A DNA stretch of 64,000 nt, taken from assembly GCF_900107795.1 (NCBI RefSeq), contig NZ_FNRL01000031.1:1-64000 (forward strand), written 5' to 3'. Shown here piece after piece: positions 9,878 to 39,837 of the stretch; the stretch's first letter is position 1; each line of letters begins with the position of its first letter. Below the pieces are notes generated by a model, which was not told the origin of the DNA, did no database searches, and saw nothing but the letters and a program-made list of their open reading frames with translations. The DNA comes from Chitinophaga terrae (ex Kim and Jung 2007). Lineage in GTDB: Bacteria; Bacteroidota; Bacteroidia; Chitinophagales; Chitinophagaceae. The translations under genes and the position numbers were made by a program.

Positions 9878-12451
9878 ATGAATATTTGCTCGTCGAAAGT
9901 ACTGATAGTAGTATGGGTCGTAATATTAATTGTAACAGGTCGGCCAGTCTGTTCGCAGGGATTGGTTTTCTCTTCCTTTGAACAGGTCCAGGAGAAAAGA
10001 ACCTCGCTGAATTTAAGCGATAAGGAACCATGGTGCCTGGATGGCGACTTTGGTATGTCTTTTCAATTCAGCTTCTATCCTGATAAACAGGTCTATTATG
10101 GTTACCTGTTGCGGATGGTCAATCAGCACGGGCAGAATATAGATCTCATCTACAATAATCAAAACCAGCAATTCAATATTGTTTCAGGAGGGAATTACAT
10201 GGATCTCTCCTTCACGATCGATAGCAGTTTGCTTTTCAGGAAATGGAATACCTGCGCGTTGGAATATAAGGACCAGACTTTATCGTTGTTCATAAACGGG
10301 AGATCCTGCGGCGGGCGACAGCTCGCGCTCCGGGATCATTGTTTCCTGATCAGTTTCGGGGCATCGCAACTGCCGAATTTTAAATCCAGCGACCTGCCGC
10401 CGATGAAGCTGAAAGATGTATCCCTGCACCGCGGAAGCAAACAATACGCTTTCTGGCCTTTGAAAGAAGTAGATGGAAATCTGGCAATAGACAGTATAGG
10501 AGGGAAGAAGGCACTCGTTACCAACCCTATCTGGGAAACGCCGCTGCATCAACGCTGGCAGCTGTTGCAAACCGTTACCGTTAAAGGGAACGGTAGTTAT
10601 ACTTTTAACCCGCTCGAAGAAGAAGTATATATGGTAGGGTCAGACAGCATTCATCGTTTCCTGCTGAGAGACCGTTCTTTGTCTGCTGATGGCCTGTCGA
10701 AACCGGTTTTTTTAGCAAGAGGATTTCAATCGATTTACAACCCGGCCGACAAGACCTTATATAGCATACATATTGATAAGCGGGAGATCACTGCCTTTCT
10801 TTTTGGTGCAAAAAAATGGGATCAGCAGATCGATTCCCTGGAAGTGACCCAGTACTGGCAATCAAATAAGTTCATCAACCAACGGGAAAACGCCTTGTAT
10901 GTACTCGGCGGCTATGGGCAGCTGAAGTACAAGAACCTGGTACAGCGTTGTTCCTTCAACGACCGCAAATGGGAAGAGGTAAAGGTACAGCAGCAGGATT
11001 ACAAGCCCCGTTACCTGGCGGCATTGGGTACCAAAGCCGGGGGCGATACAGCGTATATACTCGGCGGTTATGGCAGCAACACGGGCGAGCAGATGCTCAA
11101 TCCCCGCTACTACTACGACCTGTTGATGTTCGATGTAAAGAACCGGGAAATAAAAAAGATCTATACCCTGAAGGAACCGGAAGAGCCGTTCGCTTTTGCT
11201 TCTTCCATGGTTATAGATACCTCCGACAATAGTTATTACGCACTTATCTTTCCTAATGACCGTTTTAGGTCGGCCCTGCAACTGATCAAAGGATCGTTGC
11301 ACGAACCGACCTATCAGCTGGCCGCGGATACTATTCCTTATGCGTTTGCTGACAACTTATCAAGCGCGGATCTCTTTTACTGCGCCCGAAGCAACCAGTT
11401 GCTGGCCATTACCCAGCTCACGGCAAAAGACAGATCAACCGAGGTGCGTATCTACTCACTGGCCTTCCCGCCTCAGCAACTGCAGGAGGGCGCTACAGCC
11501 GCAACCAGTGCCGCCGGTTGGTATAACCGGCCCCGTTATTTATTAATAATTGCATTAATCGGCGTAGCTATTGCCTTATTTGTCTTTTTGCGTAAGTATT
11601 TGATTCGTAAACCTTTGCCGGCAATAACTAAACTTCCTGACGAGCCTGCGGCCCCGGCTTTACCAACCGTTAATACGGTTCCTGTGAAGCCCGTTGCGCC
11701 GGTAGCGGAACAAGGGCAAGACCCTAAGGAAGGGAAAGCTATATTAACCCTGTTCGGCGAATTTACAGTCAGGGATAAGGACAAGAACGCGCTGACACAT
11801 CTTTTTTCTCCCCTGATCAAAGAGATGTTCCTGCTGATCGTTATTCATACAGCTCGCACCGGCAAAGGCATTTCAACGGAAAAGCTATACGAAGTGCTGT
11901 GGTACGACAAATCGGAAAGAGATGCCCGGAATAACCGTTCCGTGAACATGGTGAAACTGAAAGGGATACTGGAGAAATTGGGAACAGGAGTGATCCAGCG
12001 GGAAGATGGCAAATGGAAGTTCGTGTATGACCCGGCGTTATTATGGGTAGACCTGATGGAATTCTATGCACTATCCAAGTCTAATAATTTGACAACGAAC
12101 GAATTACATACTTTATTGAATATTCTTAAAGAAGGAACCTTCCTTTTCAGAACGGAGTATTTATGGTTGGAAGATATTAAATCGGAAGTCTCCTCCCAGG
12201 TATTGGATATATTGTTAAGGGAGATAGGGCAGCTTCCCGGAAATGCATCTCCCGATACCTTTATAGAGATCGCCAATGCAATTTTCGTTTTTGATCCTAT
12301 ACATGAAGATGCACTTCGCTGGAAGTGCCGGAACCTGATACAGTTAAACAGGTTGACGTTAGCGAAATCTGTTTATGAGAAATTCTGTAAAGACTATCGT
12401 CATATCTATGGCGAATCATTTAACACCAGTTTCCAGGAAATCATCTCTTAA
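9878..12451 (+). CDS. membrane-tethered Kelch sensor with SARP-like DNA-binding domain
   Basis: The ATG at 9878 gives 857 residues; a GTG 12 bases upstream is less likely. Order of parts: signal peptide or anchor (1-27, ends V-C-S-Q); LamG-like beta-sandwich (about 35-200); Kelch-type repeats (about 220-540, with L-Y-V-L-G-G-Y-G and A-Y-I-L-G-G-Y-G); transmembrane helix (about 552-574); Pro-rich linker; winged helix beginning L-T-L-F-G-E-F-T-V (about 621-715); alpha-helical bacterial transcriptional activator domain to the end. This reads as a one-component sensor: ligand binding in the periplasm, DNA binding in the cytoplasm. Its place directly before SusC/SusD suggests it controls that locus. 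Confidence 0.82.
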   Translation: MNICSSKVLIVVWVVILIVTGRPVCSQGLVFSSFEQVQEKRTSLNLSDKEPWCLDGDFGMSFQFSFYPDKQVYYGYLLRMVNQHGQNIDLIYNNQNQQFNIVSGGNYMDLSFTIDSSLLFRKWNTCALEYKDQTLSLFINGRSCGGRQLALRDHCFLISFGASQLPNFKSSDLPPMKLKDVSLHRGSKQYAFWPLKEVDGNLAIDSIGGKKALVTNPIWETPLHQRWQLLQTVTVKGNGSYTFNPLEEEVYMVGSDSIHRFLLRDRSLSADGLSKPVFLARGFQSIYNPADKTLYSIHIDKREITAFLFGAKKWDQQIDSLEVTQYWQSNKFINQRENALYVLGGYGQLKYKNLVQRCSFNDRKWEEVKVQQQDYKPRYLAALGTKAGGDTAYILGGYGSNTGEQMLNPRYYYDLLMFDVKNREIKKIYTLKEPEEPFAFASSMVIDTSDNSYYALIFPNDRFRSALQLIKGSLHEPTYQLAADTIPYAFADNLSSADLFYCARSNQLLAITQLTAKDRSTEVRIYSLAFPPQQLQEGATAATSAAGWYNRPRYLLIIALIGVAIALFVFLRKYLIRKPLPAITKLPDEPAAPALPTVNTVPVKPVAPVAEQGQDPKEGKAILTLFGEFTVRDKDKNALTHLFSPLIKEMFLLIVIHTARTGKGISTEKLYEVLWYDKSERDARNNRSVNMVKLKGILEKLGTGVIQREDGKWKFVYDPALLWVDLMEFYALSKSNNLTTNELHTLLNILKEGTFLFRTEYLWLEDIKSEVSSQVLDILLREIGQLPGNASPDTFIEIANAIFVFDPIHEDALRWKCRNLIQLNRLTLAKSVYEKFCKDYRHIYGESFNTSFQEIIS

Positions 12452-12490: not shown

Positions 12491-12548
12491 TTAATGGCGC
12501 GTTAATGCGAATGTTAATCCATTTATTAGCGTCTAGCGCATTGATTTG
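12491..12548 (+). promoter_or_regulatory. candidate promoter and activator repeats of the susCD operon
   Basis: Three TTAAT direct repeats start at 12491, 12502 and 12514, that is 11 and 12 bases apart, one helical turn each. A near-consensus Bacteroidota -7 box, TTGATTTG against TAnnTTTG, lies at 12541-12548. SARP-type activators of actinomycetes bind tandem direct repeats with 11-base period just upstream of the core promoter, so the layout fits the regulator encoded next door. This is inference from pattern only. Confidence 0.4.
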
Positions 12549-12712
12549 CAATATGATTTAACAAAAGCTGCGTTTCGGCGAAGCGATGACTTACTGGATT
12601 CCACGATTTGAAAGTACCATCCCTTTCCTGCAAATTCCTATAAGTACGATCAGCTAAACGCCATCAGGCTAACAGAAGTTCCACGATTTTTTAAACCATT
12701 AATTATCAATCA

Positions 12713-15700
12713 ATGATGCGATTCTGCTTGTCAGCTGTCCTGTCGCTTTGCCTTTTTTCGCAGGCAATGGCCCAACGCACCCAGATCCGGGGTAAAGCCA
12801 CAGACGACAAAAACAATCCGCTCCCGGGAGTAAGTATCCTGGTAAAGGGAACTAAAATGGGTACGGCTACCCAGGCCGATGGTACCTTTTCCCTGAATGT
12901 GAATGATCCAAACAACACGGTACTCAGAGCTACAATGACGGGTTATGAACCAAAAGAAATTGCTTTAAACGGGCGGACAGCCGTCCAGTTCCTGCTAACG
13001 CCTTCCGCCATCAACCTGAACAACGTGGTGATCACCGGGGCGATGGGGCTTACCAAAACGCAAAAACAGGTAGGCTATGCCTCCCAAACGGTAGATGCTA
13101 ACAATTTTACAGAAGCCCGCGACCTGAACCTGGTGAATGCCTTATCAGGAAAAGTAGCCGGTCTGCAGGTCACCAATATGGGACAACCGGGCAGCTCGGC
13201 CAGGGTAGTGATCCGCGGCGAGAACTCCATCACCCAGAACAACCAGCCGTTGTGGGTGATCGACGGGGTGCCTATCAACAACGATATGGGAGATGCCAAC
13301 GATAATAAGCTGGACTATGGCAACGGGGCGGCAGATATCAATCCCGACGACATCGAAACCATGACCGTTTTACAGGGGCCCAACGCCGCCGCTTTATACG
13401 GTTCCCGCGCTGCCAATGGCGCCATCCTCATCACTACCAAGAAAGGAAAAATAGGAGACGGGTCATTAGGGCTTTCCGTTAACCAGAACACCCAGGTGAA
13501 CAGCATCGCCCAGTTTCCGGAATACCAGAATGTATACGGCGAGGGAGGAAACGGGCAGCTGGTCGGAAATGGCAACAACATCGTAAAAGGCACCAATGGC
13601 GTGCGGATGGGGCAAAATAACAGCTCCTGGGGTATGCCAATGCTCGGGCAGCCATACAACGATTTTGCCGGCAACCCCATTCCCGGCGGTTACCGTCCGA
13701 AGCCCAATAATATTACCGACCTGTATAAGAACAGCATCACCAATTCTTCCAACGTAGCCATTAGCAGGGCCGATGGATTATCTTCCTTCCGTCTCTCTTA
13801 CGGCTATACGAATAGCAATGATGTGCTGAAAAATTCCAACCTGATCCAGAAACACAACCTCCAGCTGAATGCCAGCAGGAAAGTGGTGGACTGGCTGAAT
13901 ATTGATACCAGGGTAATATATACCACTCAGAACACGAAGAACAGGATGGTCAGGAACCTGGATCAGAACAGCCCGATGGCGGCATACGTATACCTGCCAC
14001 GCAGCTTCGACCTGGATGCCATGACCCCCTGGGCCGACGCCTTTGGCAACTCTACCACGCTGGGATCTACCAACAGTACGGAAAACCCGCTTTGGATGTT
14101 GTATGAGAACAGCAACCAGGATAAACGGAACAGGATCATAGGCGGTATCAGCGCTACCATTAACTTCTCCAATAAACTAAGTTTTAAAACCCAGGCATCT
14201 ACCGACATCCTGAATTTTAACAACTATACCTATACGGAGTTGGGAAGTTTAAGAACGCCAAGAGGCGCTTATAACACCACTTCCCAGATCAACCAGATGT
14301 GGGATTACCAGGGAATGCTCTCGTACCGCGATAAATTCGGTAAAGACTTCACCTTGCAGGCCAACGTGGGCGCGGAGTATGTGATGAATAACAACCAGAC
14401 CAAGTTCACCTCTACAGACGCGTTACTGACCCACGATATGCCGAGCATCCAGAACACCACTTCTCCTCCTGTTTCCAGGGAATATCTTTTAAGATCAAAT
14501 GTGCAATCGATTTTAGGAGATGCAACGCTGGGCTTCCGCGAGTTCCTGTTCCTGAATGTGACAGGGCGTAACGACTGGTCTTCTACCTTGCCGGTAAACA
14601 ATTCCAGTTTCTTTTACCCTTCTGTCAGCGGCAGTTTCGTTTTCTCTAACCTTTTACCCCAGTCCAGCGTCCTGAATTTCGGTAAACTAAGAGCTTCCTA
14701 TGCGCAGGTTGGTAACGCCGCCCCGCCGCTAACCCTGTATACCATGTACAGCAATGGCCTGTTCCTGGGCAATCCTTACCTGAACTATGCGCAGGTTGGT
14801 ACGTCCAATAACTATAAACTGATGAATCCAAACCTGAAACCTGAGAAAACAATATCCAGGGAGATAGGGCTGGAACTCTCTTTCTTCAAGAGCCGTTTGC
14901 AACTGACCACTAACTTCTACAAATCCAATACCCTTAACCAGATCATCGAGGCTAATGTGCCAAACGAAACGGGTTACAGCACCCGCATGATGAATGCCGG
15001 CGAGATGCAGAACAAGGGAGTGGAAATTTCCATGAACGCGGTGCCTTACCAGAACAAAGACTGGAAATGGACTGTCAGGGCTAACTGGTCCAAAAACGTG
15101 AATAAGGTTGTTTCTATAGCGCCGGGCATCGACAGGATCCGCCTGGGCGGTCAGTTGGGAGCTTCCGTATATGCCGTGGAAGGCCGCCAGTACGGTGAAC
15201 TGATCGGCAACGGGCCGTTGAAAAGAGGCGATACCATTATGGTCAGTTCCAGCAATGGCCGCACAATCGTAGACCAGAACGTTTACCTGGGCAACTTTCA
15301 CCCCGATTGGCTGGGATCAATAGGCTCCGGTTTAAAATATAAAAACTTCGACCTGTCGTTCCTTGTAACGGTGAAATGGGGAGGTAAACTGTTTTCAGGC
15401 TCCTATGCCAGGGCCAACTTTGCAGGAAGTACGCAGTCCAGCCTGTATGGCAGGGATGAATGGCTGATGAGCGCTATTGTGCTGGGAGAAAACGACCAGG
15501 AAAGGATGGGCCAGGGATTGCCTAACTCTAAAGGCAACACGCAGTATGCAGACGCAGAACGGCCTAAAGGGTCGATGTACCCGAATGCTTACTACTCGGC
15601 AACGGATAAAGACGGTAAACCTATCCTGGTGAAAAGCACCATCTGGATGAACCCTACTACTTACCAATCGGACATGGTAACCAACAATACGCCTGCCGTC

Positions 15701-15955
15701 ACTTTCGACGCCACCTGCATCCGCTTGTCAGAAGTGATCTTCGGCTATGCGCTGCCTAACGGTTTACTCAAACCTACTCCTGTCAGGTCGGCCCGGTTGG
15801 CGTTAGTAGGCCGCAACCTATGGACCATCTTCAAACACACGCCAAGAGGAATTGATCCTGAATCGGCTTTATCTACCGGCAATGCCCAGGGTATCGAACT
15901 GGGAGGGTCTTTCCCGTACTCTACTTATGGCTTTGACCTGAAACTCACGTTTTAA
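12713..15955 (+). CDS. SusC/RagA-family TonB-linked outer-membrane transporter
   Basis: A 1080-residue outer-membrane protein. Signal peptide 1-21 (ends A-M-A-Q); carboxypeptidase-regulatory-like beta domain about 23-100 (G-V-S-I-L-V-K-G-T, then G-T-F-S-L); TonB plug about 105-245 with the SusC signature N-A-L-S-G-K-V-A-G-L-Q-V and P-L-W-V-I-D-G-V-P-I; 22-strand barrel to the C-terminus, ending in an aromatic residue (L-T-F). It would import an oligosaccharide together with its SusD partner, using TonB energy. The ATG at 12716 is an equivalent alternative start. SusD follows after 9 bases. Confidence 0.96.
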   Translation: MMRFCLSAVLSLCLFSQAMAQRTQIRGKATDDKNNPLPGVSILVKGTKMGTATQADGTFSLNVNDPNNTVLRATMTGYEPKEIALNGRTAVQFLLTPSAINLNNVVITGAMGLTKTQKQVGYASQTVDANNFTEARDLNLVNALSGKVAGLQVTNMGQPGSSARVVIRGENSITQNNQPLWVIDGVPINNDMGDANDNKLDYGNGAADINPDDIETMTVLQGPNAAALYGSRAANGAILITTKKGKIGDGSLGLSVNQNTQVNSIAQFPEYQNVYGEGGNGQLVGNGNNIVKGTNGVRMGQNNSSWGMPMLGQPYNDFAGNPIPGGYRPKPNNITDLYKNSITNSSNVAISRADGLSSFRLSYGYTNSNDVLKNSNLIQKHNLQLNASRKVVDWLNIDTRVIYTTQNTKNRMVRNLDQNSPMAAYVYLPRSFDLDAMTPWADAFGNSTTLGSTNSTENPLWMLYENSNQDKRNRIIGGISATINFSNKLSFKTQASTDILNFNNYTYTELGSLRTPRGAYNTTSQINQMWDYQGMLSYRDKFGKDFTLQANVGAEYVMNNNQTKFTSTDALLTHDMPSIQNTTSPPVSREYLLRSNVQSILGDATLGFREFLFLNVTGRNDWSSTLPVNNSSFFYPSVSGSFVFSNLLPQSSVLNFGKLRASYAQVGNAAPPLTLYTMYSNGLFLGNPYLNYAQVGTSNNYKLMNPNLKPEKTISREIGLELSFFKSRLQLTTNFYKSNTLNQIIEANVPNETGYSTRMMNAGEMQNKGVEISMNAVPYQNKDWKWTVRANWSKNVNKVVSIAPGIDRIRLGGQLGASVYAVEGRQYGELIGNGPLKRGDTIMVSSSNGRTIVDQNVYLGNFHPDWLGSIGSGLKYKNFDLSFLVTVKWGGKLFSGSYARANFAGSTQSSLYGRDEWLMSAIVLGENDQERMGQGLPNSKGNTQYADAERPKGSMYPNAYYSATDKDGKPILVKSTIWMNPTTYQSDMVTNNTPAVTFDATCIRLSEVIFGYALPNGLLKPTPVRSARLALVGRNLWTIFKHTPRGIDPESALSTGNAQGIELGGSFPYSTYGFDLKLTF

Positions 15956-15964: not shown

Positions 15965-17758
15965 ATGAAGAAACTTACAATATATATAAGCCTTCTGCTA
16001 TTCAGTTGGGGATGTACCCGCGACTTTGCAAGCATGAACAAAGACAGCTCCCAGTTTGGAAGCGCAACGCCTGAAGCCTCTATTCACGCCGCCAACAGGA
16101 ACCTGGTCCTGCAACTGGGAAATATGAACGGAACAAGGTTCTGGGACCTTAGCCACCTGGCCATCGCTGGTACCAGGTACGATGTAACCGACAATGGTTT
16201 CTGGCAGAATATTTACCAGGGCGTTCTCGGCAACCTTACACAGGTAGAACTGAACTACGGCGCCGATTCCATATATCGCAACCGGGTACAGGTAGCCCGT
16301 ATAATGAAAGCATATACTTATTCCATTCTTACAGGCATCTATGGCCCGGTTCCGATGACCCAGGCCAATAATACCGGTTACCTGAGCAATGTGTTGTTTG
16401 ATGATGAGGATGATGTTTACACTTATTCGCTGAATACCCTGAAAGATGCGGCCGGCAATCTCAATCCCTCCAGGGATAAGCTGACCTACGACGCTATCTT
16501 CAGCGGGGATATTAATAAATGGATCAAATTCGCCAACTCGCTGCGGCTGAAGATCGCGCTGAACATCCTGGAAAACCCGAAGCTGAAACAGTTTGCAGAA
16601 GGTCATATCAGGGAAGTGATGCAGAACGAAGGGGCGCTGATGAGCAGCGATGCCGACGCCGCGAAAATGCCTTTTGAAAACGTGTCGGGCAACGAAAATC
16701 CTTACTTCCAGCGATATGTGAAAAGCAATAACTTCTGGCCATACAACGCCAATTCAACGAATGCCGGACCAAAGATGAGCGAGTTTTTAAGTACCTTCTT
16801 CCGTTCTTACCCGGATCCCCGTATGAAGGTATATTACGACTCCGTACCTACCGCCAACCGGGCATTGATCACCGATACGCTGACAAGCCTGAACGACGAC
16901 TCCCTCCGCATAGTTCAATATCCAATAGATTACCTGGGGATGCCTTTGGCCAATACCAAGCTTACAGGATGGAATGCCTTCCTGAATCCCAACCAGGGAG
17001 TAGACCTGGGATCTAACGACCAGAAGGCGTTTTCTGCTGTGACACCAGCTATCATGCAGGTAACAAGGCCTTATGTGATCATGTCGTATGCCGAAGTGTT
17101 GTTCCTGAAAGCGGAAGCAGCCTACCGCGGCTATGGTTCAGGATCTGCGGAGTCGTATTATAACGAGGGCATTGCAGCCAATTTCAGGGCCTGGAATATT
17201 TCGTCGGCCGACCTGGGCAATTATATGAAAGTAGATGGTGTGAAATGGGGAACAGAAGGCAACCCGTTCTGGAACTACCTGCACCTGGTTAAACCGGCTA
17301 TACCTGCCGGTAACCTGAATAAGATATATGCACAACGCTGGCTGAATTACTTTCCTGACGGGGCTTTCGATTGCTGGTGCCTGCAACGCCGCACCCTGGT
17401 GTTTGACCTGCCTCCGCATACGAACCCGGGCGGTTATTCTTCCTATTCTTCTACGCCAACCTATGCCGACATCCCGGGCCGCGGATCTTACCCCACTTCA
17501 GTGCCTACCCTTAATCCGCAAGGTTATAACAGCGGCCTGAAATTGCTCAACGTTACAAGCGGGAATGATTACGATATGTACACCCGTTTGCATTTTGCAG
17601 TAGATGATAAAAGAGAGAGCAAGAAATGGAACGATCGTACCGACGTAGCTTATGATAACACCTATTTGCGTAAAAAATATCCTAACTGGGAAGCCTATGT
17701 AGAAGATTGCAGGAAAACAGGTATCCCGATCAGGCTTTCACAGACCATTAAACCGTAA
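15965..17758 (+). CDS. SusD/RagB-family nutrient-binding lipoprotein
   Basis: A 597-residue surface lipoprotein. The signal ends in F-S-W-G-C, so Cys17 is the likely lipidated residue. SusD features include the early N-K-D-S-S segment, many aromatic residues, a TPR-like helical body (Y-A-E-V-L-F-L-K-A-E-A-A-Y-R-G near 378) and the C-terminal region that caps the SusC barrel. Its position right after SusC, and 3 bases before the glycosidase gene, marks one operon. The glycan is not identifiable from the protein alone; the catalytic neighbour hints at a mannose-type glycan. Confidence 0.95.
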   Translation: MKKLTIYISLLLFSWGCTRDFASMNKDSSQFGSATPEASIHAANRNLVLQLGNMNGTRFWDLSHLAIAGTRYDVTDNGFWQNIYQGVLGNLTQVELNYGADSIYRNRVQVARIMKAYTYSILTGIYGPVPMTQANNTGYLSNVLFDDEDDVYTYSLNTLKDAAGNLNPSRDKLTYDAIFSGDINKWIKFANSLRLKIALNILENPKLKQFAEGHIREVMQNEGALMSSDADAAKMPFENVSGNENPYFQRYVKSNNFWPYNANSTNAGPKMSEFLSTFFRSYPDPRMKVYYDSVPTANRALITDTLTSLNDDSLRIVQYPIDYLGMPLANTKLTGWNAFLNPNQGVDLGSNDQKAFSAVTPAIMQVTRPYVIMSYAEVLFLKAEAAYRGYGSGSAESYYNEGIAANFRAWNISSADLGNYMKVDGVKWGTEGNPFWNYLHLVKPAIPAGNLNKIYAQRWLNYFPDGAFDCWCLQRRTLVFDLPPHTNPGGYSSYSSTPTYADIPGRGSYPTSVPTLNPQGYNSGLKLLNVTSGNDYDMYTRLHFAVDDKRESKKWNDRTDVAYDNTYLRKKYPNWEAYVEDCRKTGIPIRLSQTIKP

Positions 17759-17761: not shown

Positions 17762-18880
17762 ATGAAACGTATCAAAATATTATTTACCATAGTTGCTGCC
17801 ACTGCGTTTATAATTTCCTGTAAGAAAGATCTAACAGGGCCTTCGGCAGATGATAATTTTCTGAACTACCAGATACCTGAGATACCGGTAACAGACGACT
17901 ATAACGTTGGCGCGTTCTATTACACCTTCGGCGGTTTTAACGCCAATGTAAAGGATACGCCGGTAGTAGGCCGTTATAATTATACCAATGGCGTACCCGC
18001 CCAGGCCAATATAATGGCGGCGCATATCAGCCAGGCAAAAAAAGCAGGTATCGATTTCTTTATCTTCAGTATTCGTTCTGCAAATAAAGACGCCGCGAAC
18101 TATCGCTCCGACTCTGCTACAGTCAGGAACTTCCTCAATAACAATGCAGAAGGCCAGCTGAAATTTGCCGTACAATACAACCTGAATACAGGCCAGTTTG
18201 GTTTGAGCCCTACAGCGCCTATTGAAAAGAATCCTGCTAACCTGGAAGCGTTTTTCAGCGATTTTGTCAGGCTTGTTCCTTACCTGAAAGATGATAACAG
18301 CGTAAAAGTGGATGGTAAACCAATGCTGTTTATCCAGAATGCGCAGAACCTGAACTCCGACAGCAGCAAAAAAGTATACGATACCCTCAGGGCAAGGCTG
18401 AAAGCCCAGGGCGTAGATGCCTACATCGTTGGGATGCAGGACCGCTGGACGCCGCCTGCCAGGTACGACCTGCGTTTCAGGGGCGGTACGGTAAATGCGC
18501 TTTATCATAGTTCTTACAGCACCCAGATCAGCAACTGGGACAGGTGGTACCTGTTGCCGCAGGTAATGGATCAGGCCTGGATTTACTCGAAACAGTATTT
18601 CAAGGATAACTTCCAGGCAGAATATATCCCGAATATTTCTCCCGCCTACGATCCGCTTATCACCAATGTGAATAGTACCAATCCAACTTATCCGCGTAGT
18701 GATAGCGGGGCGTTGTACCAGAAATTATGCAATGTAGCCAAGAAGAATGTCAGCAGCCAGCTCAGGATGATATTGATAGATTCATGGAATAACTGGTCGG
18801 AAGGCAGCCAGCTGGAGGCTTCCAAAGCTTATGGAGAGCTTTACCTGAACCTGACCAGGAAACAATTTAAGCGACAGTAA
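17762..18880 (+). CDS. GH99/WbsX-like glycoside hydrolase lipoprotein
   Basis: A 372-residue lipoprotein (lipobox I-I-S-C, Cys20). It has a TIM-barrel pattern with V-G-A-F-Y-Y near 49, A-K-K-A-G-I-D-F-F-I-F near 92 and a C-terminal W-N-N-W-S-E-G-S-Q-L-E (342-352), then Y-G-E-L-Y-L, typical of the GH99-like/WbsX group. Known GH99 enzymes act on alpha-mannosides and carry two Glu residues in an E-x-x-E-G motif. Here the first position is Asn344 and the second is Glu347. It may therefore have an altered mechanism or be a binding protein. It is the last gene of the susCD operon and a terminator follows. Confidence 0.75.
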   Translation: MKRIKILFTIVAATAFIISCKKDLTGPSADDNFLNYQIPEIPVTDDYNVGAFYYTFGGFNANVKDTPVVGRYNYTNGVPAQANIMAAHISQAKKAGIDFFIFSIRSANKDAANYRSDSATVRNFLNNNAEGQLKFAVQYNLNTGQFGLSPTAPIEKNPANLEAFFSDFVRLVPYLKDDNSVKVDGKPMLFIQNAQNLNSDSSKKVYDTLRARLKAQGVDAYIVGMQDRWTPPARYDLRFRGGTVNALYHSSYSTQISNWDRWYLLPQVMDQAWIYSKQYFKDNFQAEYIPNISPAYDPLITNVNSTNPTYPRSDSGALYQKLCNVAKKNVSSQLRMILIDSWNNWSEGSQLEASKAYGELYLNLTRKQFKRQ

Positions 18881-31616: not shown

Positions 31617-34600
31617 TTATTTCTTAGGCTTAAATACCCAGTAATAAAGCGGCGGGATCAGTGCCGGTGTAAACAGCAGGGTAAAGGTAAGTCCCCCGAT
31701 AATCACAGTGGCCAGCGGCCGTTGTACATCCGAACCGATACCAGTACTCAGCGCAGCGGGAACCAGGCCGATGATCGCTACCATCAGCATCATCATGATT
31801 GCCCGGTATTGCTCTACCGACGTTCGTTCTACGGTATTGATCAGCGGATCGTTGCTGATGAGCGTTTCCCTGTTCAGCGCCGAAACCAGCAACACCCCGG
31901 CCATTACAGAAATACCAAAGATGGAAACGAAACCCACACCGGCCGAAACATTGAAGTGATAACCCCGTATGAACAGCGCCACAATTCCTCCTGCCAACGC
32001 TACCAGGATGCAGCTCATGGTAATGAATGTCTGCTTCATATTCTTGAACAGCATGAAGAGGAATACGAACACGATGACGATTGTAAGCGGGATGGTGAAC
32101 GCAAGCTGTTTGCCCGCCCGCTCCAGGTTTTCGTACTGGCCTCCGTAGATAATGGAATAACCTTTGGGTACATGAACGGTTTGCCCTATCCGATCCTGTA
32201 ATTCCTTTACAAACGAACCCTGGTCGCGCCCTCTCACATTCGTGCGTACTGTTACCATTCTTTTGCCATCGATACGGTAGATATTCGTTTGCCCGTCTAT
32301 AAACTTAACTTCCGCCAGCTGATCCATCGGGATAAGGGCGCCGGTAGCCGATGGCACCTGTAACGATTTAATGGCTTCGATCGTACTCCTGTACTCGGGC
32401 AGGTAACGGATCACGATATCGTACCGCTTGGTGCCGTCGTACAACGTGCCGATAGGTTTGCCTCCAATGGCCGCTTCTATCATGGCTTGTATATCGCTTA
32501 CATTAATAGCGAACCTCGCTGCATTCTCGCGGTTGATATTGATCGCCAGCTGGGCCTGCGTACCTTCCTGCTCAATGTTCACAGATGCTGATCCCTGCGT
32601 GGCTTTTACGATGGCAGCAATACTGTCGGCTTTCCGCCGCATCATCTGCAGGTCGTCGCCCACTACGGAAATCGCGAGGTCGGCGGCGCTTCCGGTAACA
32701 ATTTCCATTACCTGGTCTATAATCGGTTGCCCGGAGTTGAACGAAGCGCCCGGAATACTTCTTTCCAAATCGCTTTGTATCCGCCTTACCAGTTCCTTTT
32801 TGGAAATGGTATCGCTCCATAGCTTATAGTCCTTCAGGCCAACCAGTATTTCCGTCCTGTTGGCAGGGAAGGGGTCTGTTCCATCGTCGTTCCGGCCTGT
32901 TTGCGTGATCACGTAACGTACAGGGCTATACTTACTGATGATGGCCCTGATCTGCGGCGCTATCTTCGCATTTTCCTGTATGGTAACGCCGGCGGGAAGG
33001 AATGCGCGCATGAATATAGATCCTTCATCCAGTTCCGGTAAAAACTCTGTACCTAACCTTGTTCCTAATCCTACCAGCGCCACGATAGCCAGGCCGGCAA
33101 TCAGGATGGTCCGTTTATACGATTTAAGGAAAACAACCAGGGTCCGGTGATACGAACGTTCGAAGAAGTTCAGCACCGGGTTTTTATGCTCCTTCATTGG
33201 CGCATCCGTTGAAAGCGCCTTCCTGTAAGCAAAGGATATCAGTACCGGGATGAGGGTAAGGGCGCAGATCATGGCGCCTATCACTGCAAAGGCCAGGGTT
33301 AAGGCCATGGGAGAAAACAGTTTTCCTTCTACCCGCGTCATCATCAGGATGGGCGTATATGCGAGGATGATAATGGTAACGGAGAAGAAAATTTCCCTGC
33401 CTACTTCCTGTGCGGCCGCCAGCGTGATCCCGATAATACCCGTCCTCTTCTCTTCAGGCGTTGCACTCCTGTACCGCCTGATCAGGTGCTCGGCCATTAC
33501 GCAGGCGCCGTCAACAATGATCCCGAAGTCTATGGCGCCTAAGGAAAGCAGGTTGGCGGGTATTCCTGTAAGCCGCATGAGTATAAATGCGAACAACAGC
33601 GAGAAAGGAATAGTGGCGGTTACTACCAGCGCCGATCTTAAACTTCCCAGGAAGAACACCAGTACGATCACTACGATGCTGATACCCATAAAAAGGGTAT
33701 GCGACACGGTTTCAAGGGAATGGTCAATTAGGAAGCTCCTGTCGTAAAGCACGCGGAGTTTCACCCCTTCCGGCAATTCCGTTTCGCTTAACTCGGCTAT
33801 TTTGCTTTTAAGGGATTTCAGTACTTCGCTGGGATTTTCGCCCCTGCGCAAAAGGATGATCCCTTCGGGAGAGCCGATCTTGTCTATGCCCTCATCAGGA
33901 ATAGAATACCCCAATACGCCGGATGGAGGAGGAGGCGCTATTTCTACCGTTGCCACATCCCGCACATAGATAGGCGTACCGCTAACCGCTGCCAGTACTA
34001 TGTTCTCAATATCATGTTCTGTTTTAACGGCTCCAAGCCCCCGTACGGCAAAGCCCTGGCCCCCGCGGGCAATTACATTGCCTCCCGTATTAAGGTTGTT
34101 TTTCTGCACCGCGTTGATCACATCTTCCAACGTGAGGTTATACTTGCGAAGTTTGGTAGGAGAGGTGAGTATATGAAACTCTTTTAACGGCCCCCCGAAC
34201 GTTGTCACATCAGCAATGCCCGGCACCTGTAAAATAGCAGGGCGGATCACCCAGTCCTGCAGGTCGCGCAGCTGCATGGCGGTATAATTGGCAGGCGCTT
34301 CTACCACGTACCTGTAAATTTCACCTACTGCCGTGGTGAGCGGCGCCAGTTGCGGGGTAACGCCATCCGGCAGGCTGATGGAAGATAACCGCTCTATCAC
34401 CTGCTGCCTGGCAAAATAATCGTCTGTTCCATCCTGGAAGGTCAGCTGTACAACGGAAAGTCCGAAGATGGTACGGCTTCTCCTGTCCAGCACCCTGGGC
34501 ACATTGTTAAGCGCCCGTTCTATAGGAATGGTCACCTGCTGCTCTACTTCTTCGGCCGCCCGTCCGTCGAACGGCGCCACTATAATTACGTTGGTATCTG

Positions 34601-34727
34601 CAATGTCGGGATAGGCTTCTATCTTCAGCTGTGTAAAGCACCAGTAGCCGATGGCCGACAACACGATGGCTGCTATGATAACAGCCCACCTGTTGCGCAG
34701 GGAAAATATCAGAATGTTGCGGATCAT
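31617..34727 (-). CDS. CusA/CzcA-family heavy-metal RND efflux pump
   Basis: A 1036-residue inner-membrane RND transporter with the usual twelve-helix duplicated layout. The heavy-metal (HME) proton-relay motif reads G-A-I-D-F-G-I-I-V-D-G-A-C-V-M-A-E (near 400), retaining Asp, Asp and Glu. Other marks are P-D-I-A-D-T-N-V near 37, R-S-I-F-type docking segments, and G-V-G-F-V-S-I-F-G near 920. It would drive a proton/metal antiport across the envelope with the adaptor and TolC protein encoded upstream. The start overlaps the DUF190 gene stop by 4 bases. Whether it exports Cu/Ag or Zn/Co/Cd is not determinable by eye. Confidence 0.95.
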   Translation of the reverse strand: MIRNILIFSLRNRWAVIIAAIVLSAIGYWCFTQLKIEAYPDIADTNVIIVAPFDGRAAEEVEQQVTIPIERALNNVPRVLDRRSRTIFGLSVVQLTFQDGTDDYFARQQVIERLSSISLPDGVTPQLAPLTTAVGEIYRYVVEAPANYTAMQLRDLQDWVIRPAILQVPGIADVTTFGGPLKEFHILTSPTKLRKYNLTLEDVINAVQKNNLNTGGNVIARGGQGFAVRGLGAVKTEHDIENIVLAAVSGTPIYVRDVATVEIAPPPPSGVLGYSIPDEGIDKIGSPEGIILLRRGENPSEVLKSLKSKIAELSETELPEGVKLRVLYDRSFLIDHSLETVSHTLFMGISIVVIVLVFFLGSLRSALVVTATIPFSLLFAFILMRLTGIPANLLSLGAIDFGIIVDGACVMAEHLIRRYRSATPEEKRTGIIGITLAAAQEVGREIFFSVTIIILAYTPILMMTRVEGKLFSPMALTLAFAVIGAMICALTLIPVLISFAYRKALSTDAPMKEHKNPVLNFFERSYHRTLVVFLKSYKRTILIAGLAIVALVGLGTRLGTEFLPELDEGSIFMRAFLPAGVTIQENAKIAPQIRAIISKYSPVRYVITQTGRNDDGTDPFPANRTEILVGLKDYKLWSDTISKKELVRRIQSDLERSIPGASFNSGQPIIDQVMEIVTGSAADLAISVVGDDLQMMRRKADSIAAIVKATQGSASVNIEQEGTQAQLAININRENAARFAINVSDIQAMIEAAIGGKPIGTLYDGTKRYDIVIRYLPEYRSTIEAIKSLQVPSATGALIPMDQLAEVKFIDGQTNIYRIDGKRMVTVRTNVRGRDQGSFVKELQDRIGQTVHVPKGYSIIYGGQYENLERAGKQLAFTIPLTIVIVFVFLFMLFKNMKQTFITMSCILVALAGGIVALFIRGYHFNVSAGVGFVSIFGISVMAGVLLVSALNRETLISNDPLINTVERTSVEQYRAIMMMLMVAIIGLVPAALSTGIGSDVQRPLATVIIGGLTFTLLFTPALIPPLYYWVFKPKK

Positions 34728-35029
34728 GCGTCTATCAGGTCTACTGGATGAGTAATAATAAGCCCTCCTTTATATTGTTCTCTCAATAATTTCAATACGG
34801 ATAATACCTTCTCATCTTCATCTATAAAAACGATCATCATGGAAGGATCATCAAAGGAGAATATCTGGTTGGGTCGTTTGATCTTGTGGTTAATACCGAA
34901 TCCCATCATGCCGGTGAATGCCGTAGCGCCTTTAACGTTATGCCGTAACAGGAACTGCATAATGAACTCATATAAGGGCTGTGAGTGGATCAGGTTATCT
35001 TTGTCTATAAAGATCTGTGCTTGTAGCAT
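34724..35029 (-). CDS. DUF190 (PII-like) protein
   Basis: A 101-residue protein matching DUF190: A-Q-I-F-I-D-K-D near 4, L-L-R-H-N-V-K-G-A-T-A-F-T-G-M-M-G-F-G near 27-46, and a ferredoxin-like strand M-I-V-F-I-D. DUF190 proteins have a PII-like trimeric fold and bind small molecules or metal-dependent ligands in known cases. It is embedded in a metal RND operon between adaptor and pump, with ATGA overlap with the pump gene, which suggests it senses or regulates the pump in the cytoplasm. Confidence 0.85.
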   Translation of the reverse strand: MLQAQIFIDKDNLIHSQPLYEFIMQFLLRHNVKGATAFTGMMGFGINHKIKRPNQIFSFDDPSMMIVFIDEDEKVLSVLKLLREQYKGGLIITHPVDLIDA

Positions 35030-35040
35030 AAGACAATATT

Positions 35041-36102
35041 TTAATATCCGAATGAAAGTCCTTTTAATTGCATCGCTCCATCGGTGACCACCTGGTCGCC
35101 TTCGTTCAGGCCGCGGTATATGATGATCCGGTTATTGGCTTCCGGGCCTGATACCACTTCGCGGCGACGGAACGAATTATCTGCCTCTTTCGTAAACACA
35201 TAGTTGCCGCCCTGTACGGTGATCAGCGCCGCTTTCGGAACTGAAAGGCTGTTACCTTCGTTCACCCCGAACCTTACCGTGGCAAACATGCCTGCCCGTA
35301 GTTTGCCGCCGGGATCGTCAACGCCTATACGTAATTTCACCATCCTCGTCACATTGTCTATCACTTCCCCTATATCTTCGATCGTGCCCGGGAATTCTTC
35401 GCTGGGGTAGGAAGTAAAAAGAAGCTTGCAGGCATTGTTCTTCTTTACTTTGGTCACCTGGTTCTCCGGCATTTCGCAGATGACCCAGGTTTTGTTTAAC
35501 CGGGCGTTCACCAGGGCCTGCGGATCAAAGCCTGCCAGTTTGAGCTTTGATTCATGCTCTATAATGGAAGTGCGTTCGTTGATCAGCTCTGTCTGCGCCA
35601 TGGCCAGGTCAGTTTCTGCAGATATAAGGTCTGTTTTAGCGTCTGATACGTCTTTACCCGTCCCCGCTCCATGAGCTGCCAGATCGCTGAACCTGTCCAG
35701 CTCTATTTGCTTTTGGGAAACGATTGCTTTACGCTGTTGCACGATGTTCCCCTTTTGCCGGATATTGATAATATGCTGCAACATAGCGGTATAATTGGCT
35801 GTGAGTTCCGGGTTATCGAATAACACCAGGTTCTGGCTGGGATTTTCTTTTGAATAGACCACGGTGGCCGCCACCATTGCAGGCGCTGTCAGCTCCGCGC
35901 TGATATCGGTTTTGGTAACGGCAGCTGTTTTGAAATAGCTTAAAGTAAGACTGTCGGGCGGAAACCTCACAACCAGTCCGCTGTCTTCAACCGTGGGTTT
36001 GGTGGATACCGGGGCGTTGGTTTTCTTCTGTTCATGACCGCCACAGGATATTGCCGTCCAGGATATAACAGCGAATATTAAGCTATAGACTGATGTTTTC
36101 AT
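35041..36102 (-). CDS. RND efflux periplasmic adaptor (membrane-fusion) lipoprotein
   Basis: A 353-residue CusB/CzcB-type adaptor. The lipobox T-A-I-S-C places lipidated Cys at 20. A coiled-coil hairpin of about 115-190 (Q-R-K-A-I-V-S-Q-K-Q-I-E-L, D-L-A-M-A-Q-T-E-L-I-N-E-R) is flanked by lipoyl-like halves. The beta-barrel domain follows (D-D-P-G-G-K-L-R-A-G-M-F-A-T-V) and the membrane-proximal domain ends with E-G-D-Q-V-V-T-D-G. It bridges the RND pump and TolC. No His- or Met-rich metal-binding extension is seen, unlike the second adaptor at 46062. Confidence 0.93.
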   Translation of the reverse strand: MKTSVYSLIFAVISWTAISCGGHEQKKTNAPVSTKPTVEDSGLVVRFPPDSLTLSYFKTAAVTKTDISAELTAPAMVAATVVYSKENPSQNLVLFDNPELTANYTAMLQHIINIRQKGNIVQQRKAIVSQKQIELDRFSDLAAHGAGTGKDVSDAKTDLISAETDLAMAQTELINERTSIIEHESKLKLAGFDPQALVNARLNKTWVICEMPENQVTKVKKNNACKLLFTSYPSEEFPGTIEDIGEVIDNVTRMVKLRIGVDDPGGKLRAGMFATVRFGVNEGNSLSVPKAALITVQGGNYVFTKEADNSFRRREVVSGPEANNRIIIYRGLNEGDQVVTDGAMQLKGLSFGY

Positions 36103-36133
36103 TCGTTGATATTTAACTGTGATCGATTTTCGT

Positions 36134-37399
36134 TTAGAGCACCTGGGTATATTGATTGATTAAACCGGTAACCGACAGGAGTTGCAGGTAATTCTTCCTG
36201 TAATTGTAAAGCGCCTCGTAATACATTTTCTGTGTATCGAACCAGGTTCTTTGGGCATCCAGGAAATCGATGATCGTAGTACCGCCCCTGGTATACGCAT
36301 ACTTCACGGATTGCAGCACGGTTTCCGACTTTTCAATAATGTTCCTGTATTTGGTCATAGTTTCCCTGCTCAGTTGAAAGCTTCTCCACGCATTCTGAAC
36401 TTCCGTTTGTACCTGTTGCTGCAAAGCGCTGAGGGACTGTTCCGACTGTTGCAGTTGCAACCGCGATTTCCTGATCTCGCCCTGGTTCCTGTTGAAGAAG
36501 GGCAGGGGAATAGTGCCATAAATGCCCGCGTACTGGATAGTGTTCTGCGGGTTATAGATCACGCCCAGCTCCGGAACTGGTTTGGCCAGCGATCTTTGCA
36601 ACCTGATATTGCTTTTGGCCGATTCAATGCTGCTTTGTACAACCTGTACATCAGGGCGTTGTTGCAGGGAAAGCTGCAGCAGGCTGTCTATCCGCGTTGT
36701 GGCGATATAGTTGATAGCAGTATCCTTTTCATTGATGCTGATACTGTCTGTTCGTCCTATCATCAGTTTGAGGTTCTGAAGTTCATTGTTGTAATCCTGT
36801 TCTGCATTCCTGTACTGAAGCTGGTACTGTTCCAGCAGCAACTGTGTTCTCAATAATTCGCTGGAACTGATCACCTGGTTCTTTAACCGGATCTGCTGGA
36901 TCTTCAGCAGGCTGTCGATATTGTCTTTAGCTTCCTGGACCAGTGTCAGGTTGATCTTGTTGAACCAGACATCCAGCCATTTGTTGCCTGCGGAGGTAAG
37001 CACGTTCCGTTCAATATCTGCGTAATTCCTTTCGGCGGTGACAACATTCCTGTTGGCCACTTCCTGTTTCAGTTTGCGTTGTCCCGAGAACTGGAACTCC
37101 TTGGTCAGTTGCCACCAGCTCTGGTTATTATGGGAGTTATAGAAATTGGTTCCCGGCTGGAAATGCTCTGTACCCAGGAGCTGCAAGGTTTGGTTATTCA
37201 GGACCGGGTTAGGTCTGAGCCCTGCTGTGATAACATCCGATTGCGCGATGGAAATATCGAGACTGGCAGGCCGGAGGAACGGGTTGTTCTTCTGGGCTGC
37301 CTGCAATGTTTCCACCAGTGACAGGTTGTTTTGGGCGTGCAGGCTTGCAGGTATAACAGGTATTATACATGCAAGGAGTAGATAGCGTATTGATCGCAT
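36134..37399 (-). CDS. TolC-family outer-membrane efflux protein
   Basis: A 421-residue protein with a signal peptide (ends S-L-H-A-Q, about 23) and two repeats of the TolC fold: L-V-E-T-L-Q-A-A-Q-K-N-N-P early and G-T-I-P-L-P-F-F-N-R-N-Q-G-E-I-R near 285, with long coiled-coil helices (E-Q-S-L-S-A-L-Q-Q-Q-V-Q-T-E-V). It forms the outer-membrane duct for the pump encoded downstream. It is the first gene of the structural operon, about 390 bases below the histidine kinase gene. Confidence 0.93.
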   Translation of the reverse strand: MRSIRYLLLACIIPVIPASLHAQNNLSLVETLQAAQKNNPFLRPASLDISIAQSDVITAGLRPNPVLNNQTLQLLGTEHFQPGTNFYNSHNNQSWWQLTKEFQFSGQRKLKQEVANRNVVTAERNYADIERNVLTSAGNKWLDVWFNKINLTLVQEAKDNIDSLLKIQQIRLKNQVISSSELLRTQLLLEQYQLQYRNAEQDYNNELQNLKLMIGRTDSISINEKDTAINYIATTRIDSLLQLSLQQRPDVQVVQSSIESAKSNIRLQRSLAKPVPELGVIYNPQNTIQYAGIYGTIPLPFFNRNQGEIRKSRLQLQQSEQSLSALQQQVQTEVQNAWRSFQLSRETMTKYRNIIEKSETVLQSVKYAYTRGGTTIIDFLDAQRTWFDTQKMYYEALYNYRKNYLQLLSVTGLINQYTQVL

Positions 37400-37785
37400 G
37401 CCTGGCTGTTGGGTTTATATTTGATGAATAAGTTTGTTGTGTTTGTGTATTCCGGACAATCGACTATTTCAGACCTGGTTGTTATGGGAACGTATGCCTG
37501 CCATTCTGGAACGGGGCTAAATATTTTTCTTTACTGAATTTAAATACAAAATATAAGACTGCAAAAGTAAGGTTGCTGAAAGCTGTTGGTTTGGTGCAGG
37601 AAAGGTAGTTGATACCCTTTTTGTTGTTGCTGTAGGTAAAGTTGATCATGCCTCAATTTTAAGAACCGGGAAGGGAGTTCCCGGTAGTTGCCCGATATTG
37701 TTAATCTACTGCAAAGCTAAGCTGGCAAGGGCTAAGAGGCTATTATATACCAGATAGAAAAATATTAGAATTTTATTAGAAAGGG
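37400..37785 (-). promoter_or_regulatory. 386-base gap with candidate promoter of the tolC-adaptor-DUF190-czcA operon
   Basis: No credible coding sequence. On the minus strand TACTTTTG (37569 down to 37562) is a full match to the Bacteroidota -7 box TAnnTTTG, leaving a leader of about 155 bases before the TolC start. The region next to the kinase stop (37740-37785) is AT-rich with no clear terminator, so read-through from the two-component genes is possible. Confidence 0.5.
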
Positions 37786-39153
37786 TTACAGGTGTTTTAG
37801 TTTGATAGTAAACGTAGTTCCCTTGTTCGGAGTCGAAACTACAAATATCTGCCCCTTGTGCAGTTGTATGATCTTATGGGTGAGGGAAAGACCAATGCCA
37901 TTTCCGTCAGCAAATGATTTGTTGCTTCCCCTGAAGAAAGGAGTAAAGATATCCGGCAGGTCGGCAGTGTTGATCCCAATTCCCTGGTCGGTGAATTGGA
38001 GTATAGTAAAGTCAGGTTCAATAATAATGTTTACGGTGTTCTGATGATCTGTTGAAAATTTGCAACCATTCTCCATCAGGTTCATGAACGCTACTTTCAA
38101 CAGGTATTCATTACCCGATACTGAAATATTATCCGCATCATCAATTTCCTGTTCAAAAACTACGCTGATATGGTAATCCGGGTTGCTTTTCAATACCTGC
38201 TGCCGGGCGTCGAGCAGCACTTCGTCTATCCTTACCGGTTTGAATGTGATCTCCGAAGGGTCGTAGCTGGCTTTGGCCAGATCGAGCAGGCCGTTGGAAA
38301 GACGGGCCATCCTTTTGGCATCTGCCAGGGCATTTTTTATTACGGCTTTATATTCTTCCTGCGTCCTGTCCTTAATGGCCGAAAGTTCCAGTTCGGCGGT
38401 GATAGTGGCCAAAGGCGTTCTCAATTCATGGGAAACATTGGATACAAATTGTTTCTGGGCATCAAACGAGTTCTCAAGCCTGTTCAGCATCTGGTTGAAG
38501 GTAATGGCCAGTTCCGCTATTTCGTCTTTCCTGTTGCCTTCATCAACCCGCAGATCCAGGTTGGTAGCGGTGATCTCTTCTACGCGTTTCACCATCCTGG
38601 AAACGGGGTATAGGGCTCTTTTTGCAAAGAAACTGCCGGCTGCCAATGTGAGGATGATAGCAATGGAAAAACAGATGATCAGCGTGTATTTCAGTTTACG
38701 TAGTTTACCCAGCCCATATTGGTCAAACGCCGCGGCGGTAATGATGTATTGTTTGTTTGCATGTTCGTACAGGAATCCCACTGCCTGGAGCTTTCCTATA
38801 TGGAAATCCAGTTCCTTCAGCCGTACGATGCTATCCAGCATGCCGGGAGTTTCCTTTACCTTGTCAATACCTGCGGCATCATGGTACAGGAGGTTGTGAG
38901 AAGTATCGTAAATGGCCACTTCCTCTTCTGTCAGGGTATTGGGAGCATTGCGGTGCAGCAGCTGGAGTACAGAAGGACTTACTTTCGCTTCCAGCCAGAG
39001 ATTGGCCCTGTTGGCCGCCTGTAGTTTCAGGCGTTTGAAATACTCATCTTCCCGGTTCTCGGCATACGAAAGATAGGTCACGATCGCAAATGCAGCCAGC
39101 AATGTTGCAAAAAGCGCGGTAAACAATAACGTAAGCCTTAACCGTATCTTCAT
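37786..39153 (-). CDS. sensor histidine kinase (HAMP, HisKA, HATPase)
   Basis: A 455-residue membrane kinase. Transmembrane helix about 7-28, periplasmic sensor about 30-152, second helix about 155-175, HAMP about 178-232, phospho-acceptor His242 in N-V-S-H-E-L-R-T-P-L, N box in N-L-M-E-N-G-C-K-F, G boxes in D-Q-G-I-G-I and G-N-G-I-G-L-S-L. The periplasmic domain has no obvious Met or His metal cluster. It begins 3 bases after the response regulator stop; context suggests it senses a metal and controls the efflux operon downstream. Confidence 0.94.
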   Translation of the reverse strand: MKIRLRLTLLFTALFATLLAAFAIVTYLSYAENREDEYFKRLKLQAANRANLWLEAKVSPSVLQLLHRNAPNTLTEEEVAIYDTSHNLLYHDAAGIDKVKETPGMLDSIVRLKELDFHIGKLQAVGFLYEHANKQYIITAAAFDQYGLGKLRKLKYTLIICFSIAIILTLAAGSFFAKRALYPVSRMVKRVEEITATNLDLRVDEGNRKDEIAELAITFNQMLNRLENSFDAQKQFVSNVSHELRTPLATITAELELSAIKDRTQEEYKAVIKNALADAKRMARLSNGLLDLAKASYDPSEITFKPVRIDEVLLDARQQVLKSNPDYHISVVFEQEIDDADNISVSGNEYLLKVAFMNLMENGCKFSTDHQNTVNIIIEPDFTILQFTDQGIGINTADLPDIFTPFFRGSNKSFADGNGIGLSLTHKIIQLHKGQIFVVSTPNKGTTFTIKLKHL

Positions 39154-39156
39154 GGA

Positions 39157-39837
39157 TCAGTTTTCTTTTAGAATGAAACCCAGCCCTGGTTTTGTATGAA
39201 TTAATTTTACGGGGTGGTCTTTGTCTATCTTCTTCCTTAAATAATTAATATAAACATCAATAAAATTGGTACCTGTGTCAAACGTCGTATCCCATACTTT
39301 TTCAGCGATTTCGGCCCTGGTAAGTACCCTTTCCTTGTTGCGCATCATGTATTCGAGCAGCTTGAACTCTTTAGGGGTAAGGTTAATTTCTTTTCCGTCC
39401 CGGGTGGCTGTCATGGTTTGCAGGTTAAGCGCCAGGTCGGATAGTTTCAGGATATAGCCGTTGCTATAGCTGTTAACAGCATTGCGTTTGGTAACATTCC
39501 TTATTCTTGCCAGCAGTTCCCGGAAATCGAATGGTTTTACCAGGTAGTCATCCGCTCCTGCATCCAGCCCTTCTATCTTATCATCCGTTGTTCCCAACGC
39601 GGTAAGCATAATAATAGGCAAGTGGGGTCTTACTTCCCTGATCTGTTTGCAAAGATCCAATCCGTTTACCTGGGGAAGAATAATATCCATGATCACTACA
39701 TCGTATTCGTTCTGTAACAGCAGTTTCCTGCCTATAGCCCCGTCAAAGGCTATTTCCACGGTGAACTGGTGCTCTTCCAGTCCCCGTTTCAGCAGGTCGG
39801 CCACTCTTTGTTCATCTTCTATCACTAAAATATGCAT
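39157..39837 (-). CDS. OmpR/PhoB-family response regulator
   Basis: The ATG at 39837 gives 226 residues (M-H-I-L-V-I-E-D-E); the open frame extends 15 codons upstream without family similarity. Receiver domain 1-115 with acidic pocket Glu7/Asp8, phospho-acceptor Asp51 in V-I-M-D-I-I-L-P, Thr in M-L-T-A-L and Lys in L-V-K-P-F-D. Winged-helix DNA-binding domain about 125-224 (L-T-P-K-E-F-K-L-L-E-Y, Y-I-N-Y-L-R-K-K-I). It is the CusR-like partner of the kinase that follows, and probably activates the tolC operon. Confidence 0.95.
   Translation of the reverse strand: MHILVIEDEQRVADLLKRGLEEHQFTVEIAFDGAIGRKLLLQNEYDVVIMDIILPQVNGLDLCKQIREVRPHLPIIMLTALGTTDDKIEGLDAGADDYLVKPFDFRELLARIRNVTKRNAVNSYSNGYILKLSDLALNLQTMTATRDGKEINLTPKEFKLLEYMMRNKERVLTRAEIAEKVWDTTFDTGTNFIDVYINYLRKKIDKDHPVKLIHTKPGLGFILKEN

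Follow-up and report, generated by a model that had tools for sequence, protein, structure and literature searches.

The locus considered here, within a stretch of 64,000 nucleotides from Chitinophaga terrae (hereafter the window), raises the question of what kind of protein is encoded directly ahead of its susC and susD genes, and through which DNA sites such a protein might act upon them. In the original prediction, the product of this gene, which we will refer to as REG, was described as a one-component membrane regulator with a LamG-Kelch sensor, a single helix and a SARP-like output. The open reading frame (ORF), the conserved family to which it belongs and its predicted structure confirm this observation, and a structure match identifies the output fold as that of the SARP proteins. 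REG combines an exported sensor-like part, a single membrane helix and a SARP fold; its linkage is conserved, and it is accompanied by conserved repeat arrays that often lie at a set distance from a promoter box. Based upon sequence comparisons and structural models, it is quite probable that REG is a one-component, membrane-anchored transcription activator of the SARP type, which would control glycan loci via candidate operators consisting of tandem TTA[A/G] arrays. The features concerned are as follows.

9878..12451, forward strand: REG, regulator gene, 857 aa (ORF and conserved family)
9878..9955, forward strand: N-terminal hydrophobic export signal, residues 1-26 (sequence and a modelled helix at 5-20)
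9962..10522, forward strand: LamG-like beta-sandwich, residues 29-215 (predicted structure and weak Laminin_G_3 match)
10559..11467, forward strand: Kelch beta-propeller, residues 228-530
11531..11599, forward strand: single transmembrane helix, residues 552-574 (modelled helix)
11600..11737, forward strand: flexible linker, residues 575-620 (low model confidence; length varies across the family)
11738..12049, forward strand: winged helix of OmpR type (ODB) within the SARP fold, residues 621-724 (predicted structure, which matches AfsR/EmbR)
11915..11980, forward strand: presumed recognition helix, residues 680-701 (alignments and covariation with array letters)
12050..12409, forward strand: helical BTAD part of the SARP fold, residues 725-844
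12491..12529, forward strand: candidate operator before susC, tandem repeats TTAAT/TTAAT/TTAAT/TTAG (alignment and enrichment)
12541..12548, forward strand: -7-like box TTGATTTG, one letter off TAnnTTTG; the last repeat starts 15 bp before it

The N-terminal hydrophobic segment is present in 88 of 97 family rows. The sandwich that follows it was assigned from the model together with a Pfam match to Laminin_G_3 that lies under the cut-off. A structure search with the whole REG model was dominated by Kelch matches, and Kelch models match all 44 of the aligned family members. By a crude hydropathy measure, exactly one membrane segment is found after residue 300 in 70 of the 97 rows, whereas the remaining 27 show no segment or an additional one (helix 1 of the winged helix in the case of the window REG). 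In 67 of the 70 rows with one segment the net charge is more positive after the helix than before it. The linker, with predicted local distance difference test (pLDDT) values below 50 at residues 575-586 and 588-613, is variable and often Pro/Ala-rich in a 30-row alignment. In the structure match of the model, the ODB winged helix is followed by the BTAD part in the same order as in AfsR and EmbR. The BTAD family model matches 2 of the 44 members at E<=0.1, the window REG not among them, and no Pfam match was found in the C-terminus of the latter. A chance ORF or a mis-joining of domains is ruled out by the domain order, which is conserved in both the 30- and the 44-row alignments.

A profile search of genome contigs yielded 408 relatives, and 80 loci, many of them from close relatives, were kept for locus analysis (Chitinophaga, Segetibacter, Paraflavitalea, Pedobacter, Mucilaginibacter, Dyadobacter, Spirosoma, Larkinella and others). 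REG is contained in one ORF in 79 of these loci, 56 of which have at least 9 kb of flank on each side. The repeats in the window start at 12491, 12502, 12514 and 12526 (spacings of 11, 12 and 12), and the tandem TTAAT block upstream of susC is conserved when the window is aligned with three orthologs. In other groups of loci the same array design was observed, among the matches listed, before GH92, GH3, GH95 and GH99-like genes. The intergenic DNA of the 80 loci was scanned with a strict pattern (TTAAB-N6/7-TTAAB-N6/7-TTAR) and a loose one based upon TTARB, with 20 dinucleotide shuffles each. The strict pattern was found in 70 segments from 54/80 loci, where 1.0 segment was expected from the shuffles (control regions: 1 segment, 0.4 expected), and the loose pattern in 96 segments from 69/80 loci, with 2.2 expected (controls: 1, with 0.8 expected). 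A scan for three-copy arrays with equal gaps gave 38 segments at period 11 and 22 at period 12, one each at 10 and 13, and none in the controls at 11 and 12; the 12 and 6 segments at periods 7 and 14, versus 8 and 3 in the controls, represent background. Of the SusC promoters in REG loci, 36/58 carry a loose array versus 0/16 in control loci (p 3e-6), and all 20 of the TTAG-type arrays, which are directional, point towards the start of a gene. Additionally, for distant members from a phylum-wide search, which were not used in defining the pattern and whose sequences were fetched before it was defined, arrays are present beside the gene in six of ten genomes besides C. terrae (L148, L149, L151, L152/L161, L153 and L157), as determined in 1.5-kb flanks with the pattern freed of its fifth-letter rule.

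The position of the arrays relative to promoter boxes is also informative. As far as the available part of the source goes, Bacteroides promoters contain TAnnTTTG at -7 together with a TTTG around -33, and the second of these elements is not found in Flavobacterium johnsoniae (PMC7366714). Of 116 gene-facing arrays, 47 precede a box with at least 6/8 letters of TAnnTTTGCA, and in 20 of these 47 the box starts 14-15 bp past the start of the last repeat. Given a core of about 8 bp, this distance leaves 6-8 bp and places the preceding repeat over the -33 region. For SARP proteins, the accessible text describes direct repeats at a distance of 11 or 22 bp, of which the last lies 8 bp from the -10 element; within every repeat it is the first 8 bp that are contacted (PMC10936776). 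AfsR is described, in the portion at hand of another paper, as recognising CGTT(T/C)ATCGNN (PMC10972967). The grammar of SARP promoters, viz. repeats at the helical turn and a set distance to the box, is thus present in the sequence, and the arrays are probably targets of REG. A main role of the arrays in autoregulation was rejected, as only 6 of 79 selected arrays (those with a box of at least 5/8 letters 12-18 bp on) face REG; the DNA upstream of REG in the window's orthologs shows little conserved footprint beyond the start region. The susC leader of the window also contains TTCCACGATTT twice (12599-12609 and 12679-12689), the C. silvatica ortholog (L067) shows nearly the same arrangement, and a similar ATTCCACGA occurs near gene starts in L073, L091, L101 and L102.

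Within the recognition helix, the R684 position is variable and NNRSVN is conserved, and the letters of the arrays differ according to the residue at 684. In 12 array-bearing rows with Q684 the fourth letter is G in 54 of the 70 repeats counted, versus 26/288 in rows with R or K, both counts including overlapping arrays and both strands. At the level of loci, TTAG makes up at least half of the repeats in 12/12 Q684 rows, and 5/70 non-Q rows reach it at exactly half. Rows with S684 (Larkinella, Spirosoma) have mostly TTAAG (17/24), and the most divergent rows (L039, L063, L065 and L066) have TTAACCC-type repeats of period 12 beside REG. Three REG paralogs are present in the C. terrae genome, where the window copy has R684 and TTAAT, and the Q684 paralog has TTAG-rich arrays before SusC and a REG-adjacent gene; as two paralogs of one genome differ in this way, overall base composition does not explain the change of letters. 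As part of a wider reading of membrane-anchored SARP proteins as a class, we give about an even chance to the suggestion that residue 684 sets the fourth and fifth letters of the operator.

A number of observations weigh against these interpretations. The loci include many close relatives, and it was by visual inspection of some of them that the pattern was first noticed; in loci outside the groups where it was first seen, the strict and loose patterns are present in 26/42 and 33/42, and inside them in 28/38 and 36/38, respectively. No loose array is present in 11/80 loci or in 22/58 SusC promoters of REG loci, none was found at the paralog L035 of the same genome, and four of the ten distant genomes lack one within the 1.5-kb flanks (L150, L154/L162, L155/L159 and L156/L160). 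In the whole C. terrae genome the strict pattern has 27 matches versus 17 for a reversed control, and the TTAG-type pattern 7 versus 12, with 3 of the 7 at the locus of the Q684 paralog; on these counts the array was rejected as a genome-wide motif, and since they are near or below those of the reversed controls, the arrays are distinctive only together with their position. Additionally, 27 of the 47 good boxes lie at other, scattered distances, among which the small peaks at 27 and 40 may be due to a last repeat that was missed, and a repeat spacing of 12 is as common as 11 (107 versus 95 in the 79 selected arrays). In a tree of the 97 rows the Q684 and the S/G684 classes each form one clade; each therefore arose once, the match between residue and operator represents two events at most, and the residue-684 code was set aside as proof. 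Lastly, no GH92 was found among the genes scanned at the window locus, where only the WbsX protein fits the alpha-mannoside class discussed below.

Of the alternatives, one is that the TTAA arrays belong intrinsically to the promoter (as an AT-rich upstream element or as phased flexible steps) or serve as the site of a different factor, with REG acting elsewhere. In its favour, the TTAA cores are AT-rich and recur at close to one helical turn, and a LacI gene directly follows REG in four aligned Pedobacter loci. However, LacI was labelled only five times across the loci, the arrays precede many kinds of neighbour gene, none of the 16 SusC promoters from control loci carries one, and their letters track the REG subfamily (TTAG, TTAAG or TTAACCC) even between paralogs of one genome, all of which makes this explanation unlikely. 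It is likewise improbable that REG is a repressor, whose membrane-held SARP protomers would block the -33 region until released by a ligand: although the arrays overlie the region bound by RNA polymerase, the SARP domain of AfsR is, in the part of the source available, an activator in a like position (PMC10936776). Additionally, inspection by eye of the window susC promoter revealed no TTTG at the expected -33 place. Lastly, Kelch propellers also occur in enzymes and Pfam is blind to the C-terminus of the window REG, but that its SARP-like part has lost DNA binding, leaving a surface sensor or a galactose-oxidase-like enzyme of the glycan locus, is very improbable, as the presumed recognition helix is among the best-conserved parts of the protein (N685, N686, S688, V689 and N690 are invariant in 44 rows) and arrays accompany the gene.

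The genes that follow REG in the window are given below.

12713..15955, forward strand: SusC-like TonB-dependent transporter (Pfam CarbopepD_reg_2, Plug and TonB barrel)
15965..17758, forward strand: SusD-like lipoprotein (Pfam SusD-like_2)
17762..18880, forward strand: WbsX / GH99-like protein (Pfam PF14307, E 1.8e-14; GH99 at E 3e-4, below cut-off)

The orthologs of REG are mostly linked to susCD, as the original prediction requires: SusC is at most five genes away in 46/56 loci versus 10/20 control 20-kb regions (p 0.007). As SusC is common in these genomes, this test by itself is only modest, and a linkage arising from the base rate was addressed by controls based upon adjacency, enzymes and promoters instead. 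The gene adjacent to REG is SusC in 23/151 cases versus 12/316 (p 2.6e-5), and SusC lies within 1 kb of REG in 18/56 loci and within 3 kb in 30/56. GH92, GH99-like or WbsX genes are nearby in 49/56 loci (GH92 in 30 and the GH99-like family in 36) versus 0/20 and 1/20 control regions (p 8e-13 and 3e-11); the p values of these neighbour tests are too small because the loci are related. The first control set comprised twenty 20-kb regions placed at round-number positions in genomes covered by the family search (SusC in 10/20; GH92, GH99-like and WbsX in none), and the second consisted of twenty regions, each at most 19 kb long and surrounding a PF13620 match in the C. terrae genome (SusC recognised in 15/20, GH92 in 1/20, GH99-like and WbsX in 0/20). 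The proximity of these enzymes and the operator arrays are the stronger links, and they support the original prediction that glycan loci have here a distinct class of regulator.

Alpha-mannosides are the substrates of the GH92 and GH99 families. Pfam confirmed the GH92 cluster in all of its 39 members, and the GH99-like cluster (31 neighbours, including L111:17577-18875), which is frequent near REG, gave no Pfam match in the single member scanned and matches endo-alpha-mannosidases in PDB by its profile (E 5.7e-9). In view of the specificity of GH92 and GH99, their presence near REG suggests that REG loci target alpha-mannoside glycans as the likely substrate class, most weakly so for the window locus. 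In the Q684 clade (L073, L091, L101 and L102), REG is followed by a GDSL-TPR protein and a carbamoyltransferase ahead of SusC, a gene set that is odd for a glycan locus, and in L073 an SxtJ-like protein also lies between REG and SusC. Elsewhere in the window (31617-49737) two RND-type efflux systems and one P-type ATPase are found.

From these results we infer the following mode of action. The LamG-Kelch part would most likely sense a glycan product in the periplasm, probably of the alpha-mannoside type, and the single helix and flexible linker would tether a cytoplasmic SARP-type domain for DNA binding and activation. Three or four of its protomers, side by side, could bind the TTA[A/G] repeats of 11-12 bp over the -33 region and recruit RNA polymerase to the promoters of susC-susD and of the enzymes; in the window, REG would act on the susC promoter at 12491-12548, for which the start of transcription is predicted near 12555. 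The signal might be transferred by ligand-driven clustering, so that locally more tethered protomers would be available over an array of several repeats, or by a cleavage that frees the SARP part, and the variable linker suits both. That membrane-anchored SARP activators form a further class of regulators of Bacteroidota glycan loci, in which the promoter grammar of SARP proteins is transferred to the -33/-7 promoter of Bacteroidota and the clustering of LamG-Kelch sensors by a ligand loads three or four tethered protomers onto the phased arrays directly from the membrane, mainly for alpha-mannoside glycans, seems to us a balanced proposition.

REG matches were found in 19 of 195 genomes and 14 of 101 genera of the family to which C. 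terrae belongs and, with a C-terminal profile, in 11 of 395 genomes across the phylum, both counts including its own genome. Among the odd members, the homolog in L094 is divided over two ORFs, and L155 has a 683-aa copy with a sandwich and a SARP part and no recognisable Kelch propeller, which adjoins a second copy with an 868-aa open frame (L155/L156). A 271-aa ORF with the SARP part only follows a longer homolog (L152:1390-2205 / L161:2514-3329) and is possibly a soluble partner. The records of L078, L086 and L144 are labelled Beijerinckiaceae or Williamsia, labels that are probably wrong because the tree places these rows among Bacteroidota.

The reading of REG as a membrane-anchored SARP activator, if true, adds a regulator type beyond the extracytoplasmic function (ECF) sigma pairs, hybrid two-component systems (HTCS) and SusR types, and brings with it an operator open to genome scanning and a predicted glycan class. 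The primary sigma factor of Bacteroidota is unusual, and the SARP mechanism of antibiotic regulation would be placed in this phylum. The reading also leads one to ask by what means a receptor with one helix and a disordered linker would switch a DNA-bound array, and the portable set of sensor, output and operator would be a useful engineering tool for soil and plant Bacteroidota. In the open-access literature no paper was found on a Kelch/SARP regulator of glycan loci, and three types of glycan-locus regulators are named in the accessible part of a 2013 comparative study of Bacteroides (PMC3878776).

Among known systems, HTCS resemble REG in that one membrane-spanning protein controls glycan genes through direct-repeat sites. 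In the text available, they join a sensor kinase to an AraC-type response regulator and use two sites about 21 bp apart (PMC3878776). The window REG has no Pfam match to a histidine kinase, a receiver or an AraC-type helix-turn-helix, HTCS domains are absent from the 44 family members among the matches listed (25 of 29 Pfam families), and no sigma-70 or FecR-type domains, as in ECF sigma/anti-sigma pairs, were found by Pfam in REG or seven scanned window neighbours. SusR-like proteins of Bacteroides, as presented in the same part of that study, are also membrane proteins that control glycan genes, with the sensor in the periplasm and the DNA-binding domain at the C-terminus, and their predicted sites consist of two repeats 67 or 77 bp apart (PMC3878776); REG, whose arrays have mostly three to four repeats 11-12 bp apart, is set apart from SusR, on that portion of the source, by site spacing.

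ToxR, CadC and TcpP have an N-terminal winged helix and are not known to contain a BTAD, whereas REG has the reverse order plus a BTAD. BTAD-type domains are not rare in Bacteroidota (62/198 genomes over the cut-off), and in 12 such loci (L205-L216) small, TPR-type or receiver-type proteins were found and no exported sensor was seen, several frames being partial: those of L209, L213, L215 (with one hydropathy segment) and L216 run off the fragment with their N-termini outside, and the frame read in L207 is a reverse-strand one and not that of the BTAD. The DNA-binding part of SARP proteins is best known from Streptomyces antibiotic regulators, where it is N-terminal in a cytoplasmic actinomycete protein; in view of its C-terminal position and Bacteroidota host, REG is therefore a protein with a SARP-type output domain and not a Streptomyces antibiotic regulator. 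With AfsR and EmbR it shares the whole output fold (ODB and BTAD) and, as far as the consulted portion of the source describes them, direct repeats with a period close to one turn of the helix over -33/-35 at a set distance to the -7/-10 box (PMC10936776). It differs from them in that this domain is C-terminal, follows an exported sensor and a membrane helix and is found in glycan loci of Bacteroidota, and in that its arrays have a period of 11 or 12 bp, mostly three to four repeats and the core TTA[A/G]. The output fold and the promoter grammar are thus known already, and no description of such a membrane-anchored receptor with a candidate TTA[A/G] operator was found in the open-access literature.
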